From a bacterium (GTDB taxonomy: Bacteria; SM23-81; DAOVCL01), in assembly GCA_029932675.1 (NCBI GenBank), contig JAOZPP010000076.1, forward strand, positions 1-16,901: a stretch of DNA of 16,901 bases. Reading direction: 5' to 3'. The translations under genes and the position numbers were made by a program. Of the stretch, positions 1 through 15,975 are shown piece after piece (within the stretch, counting starts at the first letter, position 1; each line of letters opens with the position of its first letter). Under the pieces are notes generated by a model. That model was not told the origin of the DNA and ran no database searches. It saw only the letters and a list, made by a program, of their open reading frames with translations.

Positions 1-60
1 ATTTGCCATTTTTTTAAGATACTTAGTGTAAATGAGGACTTTTTGCCTAACCATCTTATT
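1..60. repeat. End of a repeat element cutting into mod
   Basis: The segment 36-60 contains GACTTTTTGCC then ACCATCTTATT, nearly the same as 4452-4478 (right end of the MITE-like element at 4346-4472) with two mismatches between the two blocks. Both are in the same orientation. The mod protein stops resembling its family at this point, so this is probably the right-hand end of a second element copy whose body lies left of the window. Only about 60 bases are visible, so the element cannot be classified. Confidence 0.5.
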
Positions 61-1010
61 ATGCGTTCAAGAAGTTGTTCAGACTTTTGAGTTGGATAGT
101 ATAACTTTTCGGGGTCGGTAGGACTTGTTATTTTCTTTACATCAGTCCACCAATCATTAATTGGTGTACCTTCTTCTCTCAACTTAGCATTTTCACCTTT
201 TACAGCGGTTCTACCTCTTTCAATAGTCCCCTCAGAATAAGGCCGATATTGAGTGTTGAATATCCAATTATTTACAGATTTAGTATGCCAGTAAATAGTA
301 TCGTGTTTTTTAGGAAATTCTTTTTCTGGTATTCCACCACCACTATAACACCAAATTATTTCATTCCGAAAATTTTCAATGGAAAAAATATCATCAAGAA
401 GATTCTTTAAATAATTACTTACCCTCCAATCACAATGCACATAAATACTCCCATCTTCGGCCAGTAGTTGGTGCATCAGTTTCAGACGTTCATACATCAT
501 GGAAAGATAAGATGAAATGCCCCGGCCCCAGGTGTCACGGTAGGCGATCTCTTCGATAATGGACTGCTGTTTGGTCACATCCTCGCCATTGACGGTAATA
601 TTGTAAGAAAAATCCGCGCCCACGGCAAAGGGCGGGTCAATGTAAATCAGCTTCAGTCCGCCCTGTTTTTCAATTTCCTCCCGCAGCGGTCCGTTCACCA
701 GCGATGAGAGAATCAGTTTGTTGTCGCCCCAGATGAGCTTGTTGGTCCAGCCTTTCAGTTGCCTGCCTGTGGTGTCAAACAGGGTCGCCTGCTGCGGTTC
801 GACCTCCTTGCGGGGTTCATCAATATGCTCAATGGAGTGAAAGGGCAGCACCGCGTTGGTCACGGTTTCGCTGCGCCCATTCCAGAACAGGAAAACGTCC
901 TCGTCGTCGGCGTAGAGTTTGTAAATATATTCCTTTGGCAGGGGTTTGCCCTGTTTAATCAATTCGATGATTTCGTTTTTTTCGGATTCGGTTAAATTGG
1001 GCTTAGCCAT
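1..1010 (-). CDS. mod: Type III restriction-modification system, DNA methyltransferase subunit (Mod), 3' end disrupted/off window
   Basis: Reading leftward from ATG at 1010-1008, the frame stays open for 336 codons to the window edge. The protein resembles beta-class N6-adenine or N4-cytosine methyltransferases of Type III systems: GWTNKLIWGDNKLIL at about residues 87-101, catalytic motif IV DPPF at 125-128, a target-recognition-like middle, and YYPTQKSEQLLERII at 304-318, which normally sits just before AdoMet motif I (FxGxGTT). Instead, from residue 319 the frame enters a repeat sequence (about 36-60) also found at 4452-4478, and no FxGxG motif is seen. I infer an element insertion or rearrangement that removes the AdoMet-binding motif; the rest of the gene could lie beyond the window. 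The start follows the preceding small gene by one base (TAAAATG). The role would be protective methylation and target recognition with Res. Family assignment is firm; function is doubtful. Confidence 0.85.
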   Translation of the reverse strand, partial: MAKPNLTESEKNEIIELIKQGKPLPKEYIYKLYADDEDVFLFWNGRSETVTNAVLPFHSIEHIDEPRKEVEPQQATLFDTTGRQLKGWTNKLIWGDNKLILSSLVNGPLREEIEKQGGLKLIYIDPPFAVGADFSYNITVNGEDVTKQQSIIEEIAYRDTWGRGISSYLSMMYERLKLMHQLLAEDGSIYVHCDWRVSNYLKNLLDDIFSIENFRNEIIWCYSGGGIPEKEFPKKHDTIYWHTKSVNNWIFNTQYRPYSEGTIERGRTAVKGENAKLREEGTPINDWWTDVKKITSPTDPEKLYYPTQKSEQLLERIIRWLGKKSSFTLSILKKWQ

Positions 1011-1011
1011 T

Positions 1012-1221
1012 TTATTTTCTCATTTTTTCTATTTCATCCGCAATTTGATTCAAATCAGGATTACCCAACCAGCGATGCCGGTCCTGGGAATAATCGCCGT
1101 ATCCTTTGTTTTCATATTGTAAAAATCGTATCGTCCCTACCACACCGAGATGCTGAACCAGAGCTTCAATTCCGGCAATGCGGATTTCTTCCAGAGTTTT
1201 TACTGCTACTTTTGTTCCCAT
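1012..1221 (-). CDS. Small antitoxin-like protein paired with the PIN gene
   Basis: A 69-residue protein starting MGTKVAVKTLEEIR and ending in a charged helix (ADEIEKMRK). I do not recognise a named domain with certainty. Small genes of this size commonly accompany PIN-domain toxins, and this one begins one base after the PIN gene stop (TAAAATG) and ends one base before the mod start. The simplest reading is a toxin-antitoxin partner translated by coupling. The order is toxin first, antitoxin second, the reverse of most VapBC pairs. The C-terminal half is rich in aromatic and charged residues (FLQYENKGYGDYSQDRHRW), which could form the toxin-binding segment; that is inference. No DNA-binding fold (ribbon-helix-helix, AbrB) is obvious. 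It could instead be an accessory R-M protein of unknown role. Confidence 0.6.
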   Translation of the reverse strand: MGTKVAVKTLEEIRIAGIEALVQHLGVVGTIRFLQYENKGYGDYSQDRHRWLGNPDLNQIADEIEKMRK

Positions 1222-1222
1222 T

Positions 1223-1663
1223 TTATATAACCTCCCTAATCCAATTTAATGGATTATTCACTTTCACTTTTATTTTATCAACAAATTGATGAATTTTTTT
1301 TAGCAATTTATCATCGGTCGTCAGAAAAATATCGGCCTGAGCGGCTTCCGCGCAGGCAATGTGCAATGCATCGAAGCTTTTAACGTCCAATTGTTGGATT
1401 TGTTTGGCGCGCCTCAATATTTGTTCATTAATTTGAACGTAATCATCTGCATTGGACAGCGTGAACTGAACTTTTGTTTTTCTCTCCGGATCGGGAATTT
1501 TGTTCACTTCATAAAGAATGGCGTCGCTGTTTATCATCGACCACTGTTTTTTCTCAATATATTTCAAAATAGTCAATATCGCTTCAGCTTCCAGATGGAT
1601 TCTGTCCTGCGTCTGGTCATCAAAAGGTCTATTCAGACAACAAACATCAAGGTAAACTCTCAT
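1223..1663 (-). CDS. PIN-domain protein, VapC-like ribonuclease toxin candidate
   Basis: A 146-residue protein with the acidic pattern of PIN-domain nucleases: D6 in MRVYLDVCCLNRPFDD, a middle acidic residue E52 (SDAILYEV), D98 in FDALHIACAEAAQADIF, and D117/D118 in LTTDDKLL. These would bind divalent metal for RNA cleavage. Length is typical for the family. It starts 3 nt after the res stop (TAG at 1667-1669) and ends one nt before the small gene at 1221, so it is co-transcribed with the restriction genes. No strong Shine-Dalgarno is visible; translation coupled to res is likely. Toxin activity is inferred from the fold and the small downstream partner. A processing nuclease in the R-M system is an alternative. 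Confidence 0.85.
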   Translation of the reverse strand: MRVYLDVCCLNRPFDDQTQDRIHLEAEAILTILKYIEKKQWSMINSDAILYEVNKIPDPERKTKVQFTLSNADDYVQINEQILRRAKQIQQLDVKSFDALHIACAEAAQADIFLTTDDKLLKKIHQFVDKIKVKVNNPLNWIREVI

Positions 1664-1666
1664 CGA

Positions 1667-4318
1667 CTATTCCATTTCAATTTTAAACAAATTAACGATT
1701 TGAGCGAAATTCTTCAAATCCTTTTTATGCTTTTCCCACAATTCCTGTTTTACATACAACGGCGTATATCGGCGCTCATTTTGTGCGGCGTTCACGTCTT
1801 CACACCAAACGTGTAATCGCCTGATCTTGCGCACGTCGTCCAAATCTTCCCTACCCTTGGTTTCGGCAATGTAAATCTCCTGCTTGGCCTTTTTGATGAG
1901 AAAATCTGGATGAAAGTCGTGGATATTGCCATCCTCCCCCTGGTATTCAATCTTGAACCCAAGTGGCTGGTAGTTCTTGGCAAAGGAGATGATATCCGGG
2001 CAGTTCTCCAGAAAAGCGGCAAATTCCAGTTCAAATTGATTGTCGCCAATGATTTTATTGAACACGCTCTTCTGCGGCACCAGATAGGGCTGATTATCCG
2101 CCACCAGCGGTTTGGCTTTTCGCAGGGGAATAAAGTTTTTAATTTGCGCTGAACCCTTGTCTCTGATGGTCAGATTATCAATTGCCTTTTTGAATGCGCC
2201 ATACAACGTCTGTTTTGCCTCCACTTCGGAAAGATTCCTTAAAACGTTGGCGTCTTCAATATTCACGCTTTTACCGAACAACTTGTATCGAATAAACTGC
2301 TCCACTTTGGGATAGAGAATATTGAATCCGCTCACCAGTCGGCTTTCCTTCAGGATGGCTTGCGTGAAAAAACCTACCACGTTTCGGTAATCGGGGAGGG
2401 TGTCGGTAAATTCTATTTTATGAGAAAACCGACCGTCAATATCGGTGAAGACGATTTCCTTCAATTCATTTTCACTGAACTGTTTCAGGGTAATCGGTTT
2501 GATATTCATGGCGCCAACCTGAATATCTTCCAGATTTTTATAATCCCGATGGATACGGGGCGACAACAGGGGCACAGGGATATCCAATTTATCCAGATCC
2601 TTTTTTTCATTGTCGCTGTCAATTTCCACAATAATCGGATTGCGGGATCTGCCCGTCTCGCCCATTGGTCGATAACTGAATTCCACACCTTCGGTTTTGA
2701 TGGATTCCACGAATTCAATAAAGGCAGATGTGCCCACCACCAGTTCTTCTTTCACGTCCATGCCGAACATTTTACGCAGGCCTCTGCCCAGGGTTTGTTC
2801 GGGCAAAATTTTGGCGGGCGAGCCATAGGGACGCAGTCCCACAATGGTCATCACATTACGCACATCCCAGCCTTCCCGGAGCATCATCACCGAAACCACA
2901 GCTTTGTAAGGAGATGTATCTTTATCCACCGCATCCGCTGCTTTGCGCAGTTGTTCCAGCTCTTCCTTGTCCCGTTTCGATGCCGCGCTCTCAGAAATCT
3001 CACCGCTTTTTTTAGTATGAATGAGCAACACGGAATCCTTGAATTCAGGATATTGGGCCTCCAGATAGCCTTTGGTTTGATTGGCTTCTTTTGTGTCCAG
3101 CGTCATCACAAACAAGATTGGCGTTTTTGCACTTTTCAATTCTTCAAACTGTTTTTTCCATTCAATATACCCCAGATGAATATAGTCTTTATAACGCTCC
3201 ACGAATTCAGACGAGGTCTTTTCGCTCAATTTTGCCCGCGAAGCCTCATCTGGCAATACAGGCGATTTGACAATATTCTGTTTGATGGCTTCCACCAGCG
3301 GATAGTCGCAGATGGTTTGAACAAAAATGGCGCCGTTGTTGTGTTTGGGCGTGGCGGTGTTGTCTATTTGCAGGGAAATGCCCTTGCCCTGTTTCAGTTT
3401 CAGATGATTGTTGATGTCCTCGATACTTTTGAACCACTGCATACTTTCATCATGAATATGATGAGCCTCGTCGTTCATCACCACCAAATCTTTAATTTTA
3501 TTGCTGCGCAGCACCTTTCCCAAATCCATGCCTTTGGATGTGTCCGCATCGGCTGGTGGTTTTTTGCCCAAAAATTCCTCTTCCGGAGACAGCTCTCTAT
3601 CTTCGTTTAAATAGACGCGGTGAATATTGGTCAGAAATAGATTGCCTTCTTCGGTAATCGGCTTCAATTCGTCCTGAATATGCAGGGTAAGATGAAAATC
3701 ATTTTGCCAGTCACGGTCGAAATAGCCATTTTCAGGAATGAGCGGGTCTTCACGAAAAATTTTGAAATCATCAAAATCCTTGCGCAGGCGATTTAGAACG
3801 ATGATATTTGGAGCGATGATGAGAAAATTTCGGGAAAGATCGGATTTGGGTTCATAAAGTTTATGGAAATACGACCAGACCAGGGCAAGACTCAAAACCT
3901 TGGTTTTCCCCGAGCCCGTTGCCATTTTAATCACATACCTCGGCCAACTTTCAGGAAACATGCCCGTGCTGATTCTGCCAGATGAGTCGAATCGCATCAG
4001 CTCAAACTTGTCTCTGGCTTTGGCGATTTCATACAGGTAAATAATGGATTCAACAGCTTCCCGCTGGGCAAAATAATATTGGAAAACATGGTCGTTTTTC
4101 TTATGACCATCGGGTTTGAACCAGAATTGTAATAAGGCCTTTGTCGTATCGGAAGCGCCAGAATAATCACTGTCCCGCCACTCTTTTACCGCCAGGCGAA
4201 TTTTATAGACCAAAGGCGGAATGAGTTGCTCGTAGGCTTTTTCCTGTAAATCTTCCTGCGACGGCGCCGAAGCGAACATTTGGGTCAAGTATTTCAAACG
4301 GATTTTGTGGAAATTCAT
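1667..4318 (-). CDS. res: Type III restriction enzyme, helicase/nuclease subunit (Res)
   Basis: An 883-residue protein of typical Res length. SF2 helicase motifs are in order: Walker A ATGSGKT at 133-139, motif II DEAH at 283-286, motif III TAT at 321-323, and motif VI QTLGRGLRK at 508-516. A C-terminal PD-(D/E)xK nuclease is indicated by HPDF (D805) followed by AETKG (E819, K821), with an acidic residue near 763-765. Known Type III Res proteins use ATP to translocate along DNA and cleave when complexed with Mod at unmodified sites. An in-frame TGA lies directly before ATG 4318, which fixes the start no further upstream; no clear Shine-Dalgarno precedes it. It is the first gene of the chain res, PIN, small gene, mod, whereas mod usually comes first. 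A MITE-like element lies 28 bp upstream and may affect expression. The reading frame is intact. Confidence 0.95.
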   Translation of the reverse strand: MNFHKIRLKYLTQMFASAPSQEDLQEKAYEQLIPPLVYKIRLAVKEWRDSDYSGASDTTKALLQFWFKPDGHKKNDHVFQYYFAQREAVESIIYLYEIAKARDKFELMRFDSSGRISTGMFPESWPRYVIKMATGSGKTKVLSLALVWSYFHKLYEPKSDLSRNFLIIAPNIIVLNRLRKDFDDFKIFREDPLIPENGYFDRDWQNDFHLTLHIQDELKPITEEGNLFLTNIHRVYLNEDRELSPEEEFLGKKPPADADTSKGMDLGKVLRSNKIKDLVVMNDEAHHIHDESMQWFKSIEDINNHLKLKQGKGISLQIDNTATPKHNNGAIFVQTICDYPLVEAIKQNIVKSPVLPDEASRAKLSEKTSSEFVERYKDYIHLGYIEWKKQFEELKSAKTPILFVMTLDTKEANQTKGYLEAQYPEFKDSVLLIHTKKSGEISESAASKRDKEELEQLRKAADAVDKDTSPYKAVVSVMMLREGWDVRNVMTIVGLRPYGSPAKILPEQTLGRGLRKMFGMDVKEELVVGTSAFIEFVESIKTEGVEFSYRPMGETGRSRNPIIVEIDSDNEKKDLDKLDIPVPLLSPRIHRDYKNLEDIQVGAMNIKPITLKQFSENELKEIVFTDIDGRFSHKIEFTDTLPDYRNVVGFFTQAILKESRLVSGFNILYPKVEQFIRYKLFGKSVNIEDANVLRNLSEVEAKQTLYGAFKKAIDNLTIRDKGSAQIKNFIPLRKAKPLVADNQPYLVPQKSVFNKIIGDNQFELEFAAFLENCPDIISFAKNYQPLGFKIEYQGEDGNIHDFHPDFLIKKAKQEIYIAETKGREDLDDVRKIRRLHVWCEDVNAAQNERRYTPLYVKQELWEKHKKDLKNFAQIVNLFKIEME

Positions 4319-4345
4319 TCATAGTTCTGGTTAAGCTTATTTGAG

Positions 4346-4472
4346 GGTTGGGCAAAAAGTCAAAATTTGCTCTAAGGGACGCAGACACAAAATGCAACTT
4401 ATTAAATAAAAATAGATTACATTTCAGGATTTAATTAGTTATAGCCCTAATTGGGACTTTTTGCCGCACCAT
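4346..4472. mobile_element. Short MITE-like element with inverted ends and 10-bp target duplication
   Basis: The left end reads GGTTGGGCAAAAAGTC from 4346. The right end, read on the minus strand up to about 4472, gives GGTGCGGCAAAAAGTC, with similarity continuing a few bases inward (AATT). The perfect direct repeat CTTATTTGAG lies immediately outside both ends (4336-4345 and 4473-4482), as expected for a target-site duplication. The interior is AT-rich and has no reading frame. It occupies the upstream region of res. The transposase family that could move it is not identifiable. Two extra bases (AT) at the right end leave the exact boundary uncertain. Confidence 0.65.
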
Positions 4473-4503
4473 CTTATTTGAGATAAAAATTCAAGGAGAT
4501 CAT

Positions 4504-5007
4504 GGGGTCAGATCTTGCTTTTTGCTGTTTTAGGCAACTGTTATCACCCTCTGGTCAGGACTTGCGGGCCAATCACTTTGTAAGGATGCACCTGCTAACC
4601 TGATCTATACATAAATTAGCATCAAATCCCTAAATTGTCAAAGGTTTTTGTAGTAGGAACAGGCCTTTTAGACCTGGCCGAGAGGGCGAACAGAGATAAA
4701 TGCCTGCCTATACAGGATAAATAGACCCTTTGCTTAAAGAAAGTTATCTCAATTCGCCATTAGTTTATGAATAATTCGGGCGAATGGGTTGACGTCCAGG
4801 GGCTCAATCTATCCTCCAGTGAAGGCAGATTATCTCCCTCTATGCCTCTGGGCCTCCTTTTCCAAATAGAGATAGTTGCCTTTCCTGAGCTACGAGATCC
4901 TTTATAGGGGGGGACTCAAATTGGAGGAAATTAAAAATTACCTTGGGTTTACTCCTCAATGGTAAGTAGGTAACCTCCAAGGGGGCAAAAAGTAAGGCCT
5001 AAACCCC
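4504..5007. repeat. Dispersed TIR-bounded repeat, copy A (longest)
   Basis: It begins GGGGTCAGATCTTGCTTTTTGC and ends GGGGCAAAAAGTAAGGCCTAAACCCC-like (4982-5007), so the two ends are inverted repeats of each other. The first 280 bp closely match copy B at 6899-7181, for example the stretch around CTGATCTATACATAAATT and the segment ending GAATAATTCGG. Copy A also holds about 210 bp more before its right end (about 4790-4980) that I do not see in the other copies and that has no recognisable gene. A foldback segment (about 4651-4710) lies in the middle. It looks like a non-autonomous transposable repeat; no transposase is encoded. This accounts for the gene-free stretch between the MITE-like element and the first cassette. 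Confidence 0.7.
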
Positions 5008-5014
5008 ATAATTC

Positions 5015-5069
5015 CCTTAACCAAATTCTTGCCCCGCGTTTTTCGGTTAGGTGGAGCGATTTGTTATGC
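5015..5069 (-). other. Possible degenerate attC-like recombination site after the CPBP cassette
   Basis: Read on the minus strand, the segment starts GCATAAC (a usual outer core form, rc of GTTATGC) 15 nt after the CPBP stop, continues AAATCGCTCCACC, and closes near GTTAAGG, which fits GTTRRRY at six of seven positions. The arms AAAT/ATTT and several CC/GG pairs could form an imperfect stem, but there are mismatches and wobble pairs. Position directly behind a cassette gene supports the call; the weak stem does not. It may be a decayed attC or a half site. Confidence 0.4.
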
Positions 5070-5084: not shown

Positions 5085-5951
5085 TTATCCTGTGTATTGT
5101 AAGTGGCTAAACATCTTCTTGACCAAGAATATCATTAAGATCAAAACTACGGCAGTGACAATCCCTGACTCTCCAATCCATAGCATTGAATTGTCACCCT
5201 GGGTTACAGGATTAAATGCAGATTGTGTTAATGCATTCGATGTTGCATGAGCAACGAAAGAAGGCCAGATAATCCCCGTATCCATACGGAGCCAAGCTAA
5301 AAGATAAGAGAAGGATGTGGCAATAATAGTAAACAGGGTAACTGACAAACCAACCGATGGGCCAGATGCTGCTGAATATGCCCCAGCTATAATCAAAGGC
5401 ATATGATAAGCTGCCCAAATGAGACCGTGAATTAGCAGTGGTCTGGGAGCGCCTGAGTTAATGAGGCGAGTTAGCATGTAGCCACGCCAACCTATCTCTT
5501 CACCGGCAACAAAAATCATATTTATCACAACTTGAGCAGTCCAAACTATCGCTATCAAGATCAGAAAACCTTGATAAGGATCTCCTGGAAGAGGGATACT
5601 TGAGTGGGACTGTATAGTTGAAAAGTCAAATTCAGTAAGCCCCGATATCCACGTAAAGCCATAAGCAATAAGGGCAACGGCCATAGGGAATAGGTAGGCA
5701 ATCAAATATGCCTTACGAAGATTACGTCCTCGAAAACTAAATTATACATCTTGAAATCCTTCTCTGAGTATCAGCCTGGTGATGATGGAAGCAATAGCTG
5801 GTGGAAAAAGGATAGCAAATGGAGTAATTCCCTTAATTCTCAGCCAGTACGCTGGAATTGCTAGAACGATTAAAAGAGTGAAAAATATGGCAAGCCCAAG
5901 CTGGGCTTGTTTCCTTGACTTTCGCTTAGGTTTTCCAATATCCTCAGTCAT
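5085..5951 (-). pseudogene. CPBP/CAAX-type (Abi) intramembrane metalloprotease, split by an in-frame TAA
   Basis: Two leftward reading segments (5951-5742 and 5741-5085) are in the same frame, separated only by TAA at 5744-5742. Joined, they give about 287 residues, a normal family length. The N-terminal part has a basic cytoplasmic tail and two hydrophobic spans. The rest carries the three CPBP motifs: EEIGWRGY (EExxxR), HGLIWAAYHMPL with its conserved His, and FVAHATSN (HxxxN), plus further membrane spans. Such proteins are membrane-embedded glutamic or metallo-proteases used in prenyl-protein processing, bacteriocin immunity and signalling. All motifs lie after the stop, so a shortened protein from the internal TTG at 5705 is conceivable but would lose the first spans. 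The gene starts 25 nt after an attC-like core, as gene cassettes do, with no clear Shine-Dalgarno. A sequencing error is an alternative to a nonsense mutation. Confidence 0.8.
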
Positions 5952-6835: not shown

Positions 6836-6898
6836 GAGTATGACTAGGGTTTATCACAGTCGCATAAGAACCTTATAGATGACAAACTGGAGATCGCA

Positions 6899-7181
6899 GG
6901 GTCAAGTCTTGCCTTTTGCTGTTTTTAGCAACTATTATCACCTTCCGGTCAGGACTTGCGGACAATCACTTTGTATGGGTGCACCTGCTAACCTGATCTA
7001 TACATAAATTTAGCATCAAATCCTAAATTGTCAAAGGCTTTTATACCAGAAACAGGTTTTTTAGACCTGTTCGAGGGAGTGGACAGACATAAATGTCCGT
7101 CCCTACTCAAGAAATTATGCCAATTCGTTATTAGGCTATGGAATAAACCCTCAAGAGGGGCAAAAAGCAAGCCCCGACCCC
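6899..7181. repeat. Dispersed TIR-bounded repeat, copy B
   Basis: It starts GGGTCAAGTCTTGCCTTTTGC and ends GGGGCAAAAAGCAAGCCCCGACCCC-like (7157-7181), an inverted match to the start. The body aligns with copy A over nearly its whole length and in the same orientation; at about 283 bp it may be the ancestral size. A foldback with ACAG/CTGT arms lies at about 7047-7107. It encodes nothing recognisable. With copy A it forms a direct-repeat pair around the cassette block 5015-6835. Confidence 0.7.
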
Positions 7182-7235
7182 AAAGTCTTCACTGGTCCAC
7201 CTGCGGGCTCGCAATGGAGGGGACCCCCCTTCCTC

Positions 7236-15337: not shown

Positions 15338-15546
15338 GAGCTAATCTTTGACCCGATCTATTCATAAATTAGCACCAAGTCCCAAATTGTTATATGTCTT
15401 GGCTGTAGGGACAGGGCTTTAGACCTGTCCGCAGGACCGGAGGAGCGGACAGACCTGAAGGTCTGTCCCTACCCCAAAAAACACATAATCCCTTAGCTTC
15501 AGGAAAGTTATGCCAATTCATTATCAGTTTATGAATAATCCAGGTT
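15338..15546. repeat. Dispersed repeat, copy D (truncated, lacks TIRs)
   Basis: It matches the middle of copies A and B: GATCTATTCATAAATTAGCA (15355-15374), CCCAAATTGTTATATG, and TTATGCCAATTCATTATCAG (15508-15527) through TTATGAATAATCCAGG. The GGGTCAG... start and the ...CAAAAAGCAAGACCC end are both missing. Its right edge abuts the transposase remnant. The stretch from 15243 to 15337 shows nothing I recognise. Confidence 0.6.
15405..15472. repeat. Nested foldback (cloverleaf-like) inside copy D
   Basis: The outer arms GTAGGGACAG (15405-15414) and CTGTCCCTAC (15463-15472) are exact complements. Inside, CTGTCCGC (15425-15432) pairs with GCGGACAG (15445-15452), and the two sides can also form ACAGG/CCTGT and ACAGACCT/AGGTCTGT hairpins. 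Degenerate versions occur at the same place in copies A and B, so it is part of the repeat family. Confidence 0.6.
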
Positions 15547-15552
15547 GATAAG

Positions 15553-15738
15553 TTACTCTACAATACGGCTGAATTCGTCAAGTCCGGCAACCTTCAGGGG
15601 GGCAAGCTGCTCTAGGGCCTTTCTGGCGGTAAGTTTCATACCCGCCCAGTCGAAGGCCTTCTCCAATAGGCTCTCTATGAGATAGGCAATCACACATACG
15701 GCCACATGGGCCTTTACCCTGGGGTCTGCAAAAATCAT
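15553..15738 (-). pseudogene. C-terminal remnant of a DDE transposase (IS4/IS1634-like)
   Basis: 61 codons reading leftward to TAA at 15555-15553. The segment PRVKAHVAVCVIAYLIESLLEKAF, followed by LTARKALEQLAPLKVAGLD, resembles the very C-terminus of IS4-superfamily (IS1634-type) transposases: a conserved Arg/Lys-ala-His helix followed by a Ser/Thr-ala-x-Lys-Ala-Leu-Glu region. The catalytic DDE residues and the rest of the protein are absent. The fragment is cut at its upstream side by copy C, which starts at 15740, and is bounded on the other side by copy D. The apparent ATG at 15738 is accidental. Assignment rests on remembered family patterns. Confidence 0.6.
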
Positions 15739-15739
15739 A

Positions 15740-15896
15740 GGGTCAGATCTTGCTTTTTGCTATTTTTCCTACTTTATCACCCTTTGGTCAAGAAGTGGGT
15801 AGGCATAAATGCCCATCCCTACTCAAGAAATTATGCCAATTCATTATCAGGTTATGGAATAAGCCTCAAGAGAGGCAAAAAGCAAGACCCGAGCCC
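15740..15896. repeat. Dispersed TIR-bounded repeat, copy C (internally deleted)
   Basis: It begins GGGTCAGATCTTGCTTTTTGC and ends near GCAAAAAGCAAGACCCGAGC, inverted relative to the start. The middle is shortened to a small hairpin (GGGTAGGCATAAATGCCCATCCC) followed by the family's AATTATGCCAATTCATTATC tail. A further inverted end, AGCAAAAGGCAAGTCCTGACC, lies at 15922-15942, matching the start of copy B; this may be a second, overlapping element end. Confidence 0.65.
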
Positions 15897-15975
15897 AAAG
15901 TTCTCACTTTTTTATGAAGTTAGCAAAAGGCAAGTCCTGACCCCTACTTCTCCATAAGATTATCTGCCAATAACC

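Follow-up and report, generated by a model that had tools for sequence, protein, structure and literature searches.

The res–mod locus at the contig end

The stretch of DNA analysed here (the window) is 16,901 nucleotides long and constitutes a complete contig, C70 (1-16901), of a genome comprising 116 contigs and 3.03 Mb; position 1 is therefore a contig end. Close to this end, a Type III-like restriction–modification (R-M) locus is encoded on the minus strand in the order res, PIN-domain gene, 69-aa open reading frame (ORF), mod. The res gene (1667..4318, minus strand) specifies the 883-aa helicase-nuclease subunit, which from residue 19 on is 89% identical to Res of L064, the Desulfobacteraceae MAG that is also the source of the closest Mod. 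Res matches PF04851 (E 2e-15) and the PADLOC profile REase_III (E 8e-21), possesses an SF2 helicase domain with mod adjacent, and retains its GSGKT, DEAHH, and PD..ETKG region motifs intact. The first 18 residues (MNEFPQNPFEILDPNVR) are out of frame, with one extra base in the window relative to L064; the original 5′ end of the gene (MNEFPQNPFEILDPNVRF; 4266..4322, minus strand) thus lies in another frame, separated from the remainder by a +1 frameshift at about codon 18. The shifted frame is opened by an overlapping ATG that lies 4 nt downstream, at 4318, and from this a Res with an altered N terminus may still be made.

Between res and mod lie the genes for a 146-aa PIN-domain protein (1223..1663, minus strand; PF01850, E 3e-7) and for the 69-aa ORF (1012..1221, minus strand). 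The latter has a homologue beside a PIN-domain gene on the Nostoc plasmid NZ_CP040301 and may be the antitoxin that partners the PIN gene. No similar pair was found by tblastn in 99 related loci, and in L064 a different ORF occupies this place.

The mod ORF runs on the minus strand from 1010 to 3, remaining open for 336 codons up to the contig end. Its 5′ part (56..1010, minus strand) encodes the N terminus, motif IV (DPPF), the TRD, and motif X (YYPTQKSEQLLERII) of a beta-class Type III-like methyltransferase, but it does so without motif I. The window Mod matches Pfam N6_N4_Mtase PF01555 (E 7e-25, profile positions 2-182 of 221) and PADLOC MTase_III (E 7e-60). When 80 Mod relatives (genome_contigs) were aligned to it, nearly all alignments ended at about residue 318-319; four reach residue 328-332, and that of the fragmentary locus L109 ends at 284. 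Past this point, K-x-S-S-N-E-G-D-L-V-A-D-F-F-C-G-S-G with motif I follows in the relatives; the window has RWLGKKSSFTLSILKKWQ instead. An earlier claim that Mod similarity ends where mobile-element sequence begins, with motif I replaced, is thus borne out. The boundary had been placed at about position 60: the break is real, but the exact switch point is 55/56, some 5 bp to the left, with 1-55 belonging to the element.

The locus shares with the Type III R-M systems (EcoP15I/EcoP1I and relatives) the beta-class Mod order IV-TRD-X-I and an adjacent Res with helicase motifs GSGKT and DEAH and a PD...ETKG nuclease-like C terminus. It differs from them in having DPPF instead of DPPY, in the order res-(PIN, 69 aa)-mod, in the interruption of mod, and in the frameshift at codon 18 of res.

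An insertion sequence divided between two contigs

The remainder of mod, including motif I (ADFFCGSG), lies in the same genome at C50:802-1923, so the missing end that the preliminary description expected beyond the element has been recovered. Using the C-terminal part of the L064 Mod as query, C50:817-1920 was matched at 88% identity (E 5e-225). Contig C50 opens with a 260-codon open transposase part (1-783), followed by AAACTTTTTGCCGTGCCATC and then ATAATAAAAGTTTCATCCAACGAAGGCGATCTGGTTGCCGACTTCTTCTGCGGCAGCGGC, the continuation of mod; the window end, read on the mod strand, runs ...CTTGAACGCATAATAA and then GATGGTTAGGCAAAAAGTCC....

Positions 1..55 (minus strand) hold the left end of an insertion sequence (IS) of IS1182-like type, cut off by the contig end and consisting of the terminal inverted repeat (TIR) followed by a leader, with a possible transposase start (ATG GCA AAT) at the very edge of C70. 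The right part of the IS occupies the first 801 bases of C50 (1-801) and contains the 3′ part of the transposase gene and the other TIR. The TIR of the IS is GATGGNNNGGCAAAAAGT, present as GATGGTTAGGCAAAAAGT at C70:55-38 and as GATGGCACGGCAAAAAGT at C50:801-784, and the two ends are inverted with respect to one another (GATGG..GGCAAAAAGT). Immediately outside the left end is a 7-bp target-site duplication (TSD), ATAATAA on the mod strand (TTATTAT in the window; 56..62, minus strand), the second copy of which lies at C50:802-808. As a control, 30 mismatched pairs of left and right flanks were compared, and these share at most 4 bp, versus 7 bp for the true mod flanks.

Joining the flanks with a single copy of the duplication yields an uninterrupted 689-codon Mod reading LLERIIKVSSNEGDLVADFFCGSG, in which the beta-class order is complete: motif IV (DPPF), TRD, X, and then I (FCGSG). 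A genome-wide search with this empty-site junction matched the two flanks only, overlapping by the TSD, and no uninterrupted mod junction was found in the whole assembly. TSDs can thus close a gene at a contig end without recourse to reads.

An IS1182-family-like IS of about 1.7 kb has very probably transposed into the res-(PIN/69 aa)-mod locus, landing in mod between motifs X and I and duplicating 7 bp (ATAATAA); the assembly broke inside the IS, such that the 5′ part of mod closes C70 and its 3′ part opens C50. That an IS has inserted into this Type III-like mod, and that the end of C70 and the start of C50 are the two sides of one IS within which the assembler stopped, can together be held with great confidence. 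The event is insertional inactivation of an ordinary sort, caused by an IS of a known kind, and the truncated look of the gene stems from the assembly break. Contig ends inside repeats are a common place for misassembly, and a false join at about position 55 of C70 could in principle have attached an element that does not belong there, with mod being intact in the genome. This is extremely unlikely: C50 independently supplies the opposite flank, in which mod resumes at precisely the following codon beside an identical 7-bp TSD and a TIR that matches, and the assembly is without an uninterrupted junction. The chimera at about position 60 that the preliminary description had named as grounds for doubt is likewise ruled out by the shared TSD and the complementary halves of the frame on two contigs.

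The transposase part on C50 (1-783) matches DDE_Tnp_1_6 (E 3e-17) and transpos_IS1182 (NCBIfam NF033551; E 1e-27, profile positions 281-486 of 488). Its 260 C-terminal residues score 97 bits, below the whole-protein NF033551 cut-off of 270 bits, as half a protein would be expected to do, and from these profile matches membership of the IS1182 family is likely. Since full-length homologues (37% identity) measure 535-561 aa, about 280 residues (approximately 0.8 kb), corresponding to the N-terminal half of the transposase, lie unassembled between C70:1 and C50:1. The total length of the IS, which is not seen end to end, is estimated at 55 + ~830 + 801 = ~1.7 kb. A search of the genome with the N terminus of a homologue gave no match to the missing half (best E 0.3). 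The transposase part recurs at C71:15969-16709, near a contig end, with 721 of 723 bases identical (99.7%); repeats such as this one probably caused the assembly to break within the IS. No relatives of the transposase were found in viral contigs, and the best ten plasmid relatives listed are only 25-35% identical.

Miniature elements related to the insertion sequence

A 131-bp MITE with the TIRs of the IS lies at 4343..4473, 20 bp upstream of the res start codon, flanked by the TSD TTATTT at 4337-4342 and 4474-4479. The MITE carries no transposase, and a consensus scan found no MITE-borne promoter for res. Five MITEs with the same TIR are present in the genome (on C4, C42, C46, C70, and C75), and four of them have a perfect 6-bp TSD.

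The 5′ end of the window and 4449-4478 are 87% identical over 30 nt (E ~1e-3 genome-wide), and the preliminary description had taken the element in mod to be the one found at 4452-4478. The 30-nt match is composed of one common TIR (38-55 versus 4456-4473) together with two AT-rich target duplications (TTATT) that resemble each other by chance, and the alignment between the MITE and the C70 end covers the TIR only, with no interior in common. Thus, 4452-4478 was rejected as a second copy of the element in mod, with which it shares the TIR alone: the former is the right end of a 131-bp MITE, whereas the latter possesses a DDE transposase, and only their TIRs are alike. The TIRs common to C70:38-55 and 4456-4473 would also suit an insertion in mod of a short MITE like that at 4343-4473 instead of an IS. 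This is scarcely credible, however, as the C70 interior is unlike the MITE interior, and on the C50 flank no less than 783 bp of transposase separate the TIR from the start of the contig.

The IS in mod resembles the IS1182 family in the C-terminal half of its transposase, its short TIRs, and its related MITEs. Its TSDs are of 6-7 bp at AT-rich sites, unlike IS1272, a member of the heterogeneous IS1182 family, which replaces a palindrome and does not make a TSD (PMC5678879). This lineage thereby gains an uncharacterised IS1182-like element together with the family of MITEs that belongs to it. A search of a paper library for IS-interrupted Type III mod genes or IS1182-linked MITEs returned no paper matching all terms.

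Other repeats are also present. Another family of short elements, whose ends are similar but whose interior differs (GGTAGCCGCAGGCTTTAGTAAGCGAAAA...TATAAATCAAT...GCAACCT), occurs at C33:~19035, C47:~4158, C75:~2945, and C100:~4044. Longer dispersed repeats in the window (4495-5018, 6889-7193, and 15351-15954) consist of pieces that are 75-94% identical, some of them inverted, with GGGTCAGATCTTGCTTTTTGC-like ends, and flank several genes; they probably form a further family of degenerate mobile or MITE-like elements. Beside the MITE region, the gene at 5085-5951 is in two pieces (5742-5951 and 5085-5705, minus strand) that resemble a membrane protease, possibly CPBP-like, disrupted by a stop or frameshift.

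Probable consequences of losing mod

In EcoP15I, a Mod dimer recognises DNA and the C-terminal domain of Mod touches Res (PMC4490356), and in Type III systems Res is stabilised by Mod (PMC3874151). Because Mod provides both recognition and Res stability, loss of Mod is expected to entail loss of restriction. From this comparison, breaking mod would disarm restriction, and no self-toxicity of the locus is to be expected. The earlier proposition that res without a working mod should be selected against therefore does not follow; moreover, res is itself frameshifted and has a MITE upstream. The apparent paradox of a restriction subunit without a methyltransferase becomes routine insertional inactivation combined with an assembly break.

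A functional Type III R-M system requires both genes intact, and here mod is split by the IS and a +1 frameshift affects res at codon 18. The locus would now be r-m-, since neither fragment of Mod contains the whole methyltransferase and Res relies on Mod. The split mod, the frameshifted res, and the MITE in the res upstream region together look like a decaying r-m- system. The good conservation still seen in the two mod halves and in the remainder of res points to a recent loss. The IS copy would also be recent, as both halves of mod remain open and well preserved and its transposase part is almost the same as that of the partial C71 copy.

The locus resembles the mod genes of phasevarions in having a rearrangement-altered mod next to a damaged res; the latter genes, however, switch through simple tandem repeats, whereas here an IS is responsible and there is no evidence of switching. 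Phase variation of Type III mod genes through simple repeats is known (PMC3874151), the insertion is flanked by a TSD, and the mod halves are otherwise open, all of which would be compatible with precise excision of the IS in some cells and a mixture of r+m+ and r-m- cells in the population. Nonetheless, the intact allele is absent from the assembly, and res is separately damaged by the +1 frameshift and the upstream MITE, so no intact system exists to be restored. Precise excision of an IS is, in addition, generally rare. Such population-level switching is very unlikely, and a shade more so in the form in which excision in a fraction of cells toggles mod while the IS-related MITEs also influence res. 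Inactivation of mod by the IS remains the preferred reading.

Intact Mods, defined as having at least 550 aa and both motifs, are found in 81 of the 99 related loci, so that interruption does not characterise the Mod family. Most of the remaining loci run off a contig end, encode shorter paralogues, or miss the motif pattern.

Two further mod loci depart from the usual arrangement. A second split mod occurs in the same genome (L167:1953-4635, equivalent to C54:16452-19134), in which a 439-aa methyltransferase part with FCGSG is followed by a nucleotidyltransferase (PF01909), a HepT-like RNase (PF01934), and the Mod C-terminal region as its own ATG-started ORF; on the basis of these domain matches, an MntA/HepT-type toxin–antitoxin pair appears to be inserted in, or to divide, this Mod. 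In a Chlorobiota MAG, mod (L072:1500-1640) has a frame break at about residue 328, just before motif I and at nearly the same point as the insertion described here, which may be a sequencing error or a coincidence.
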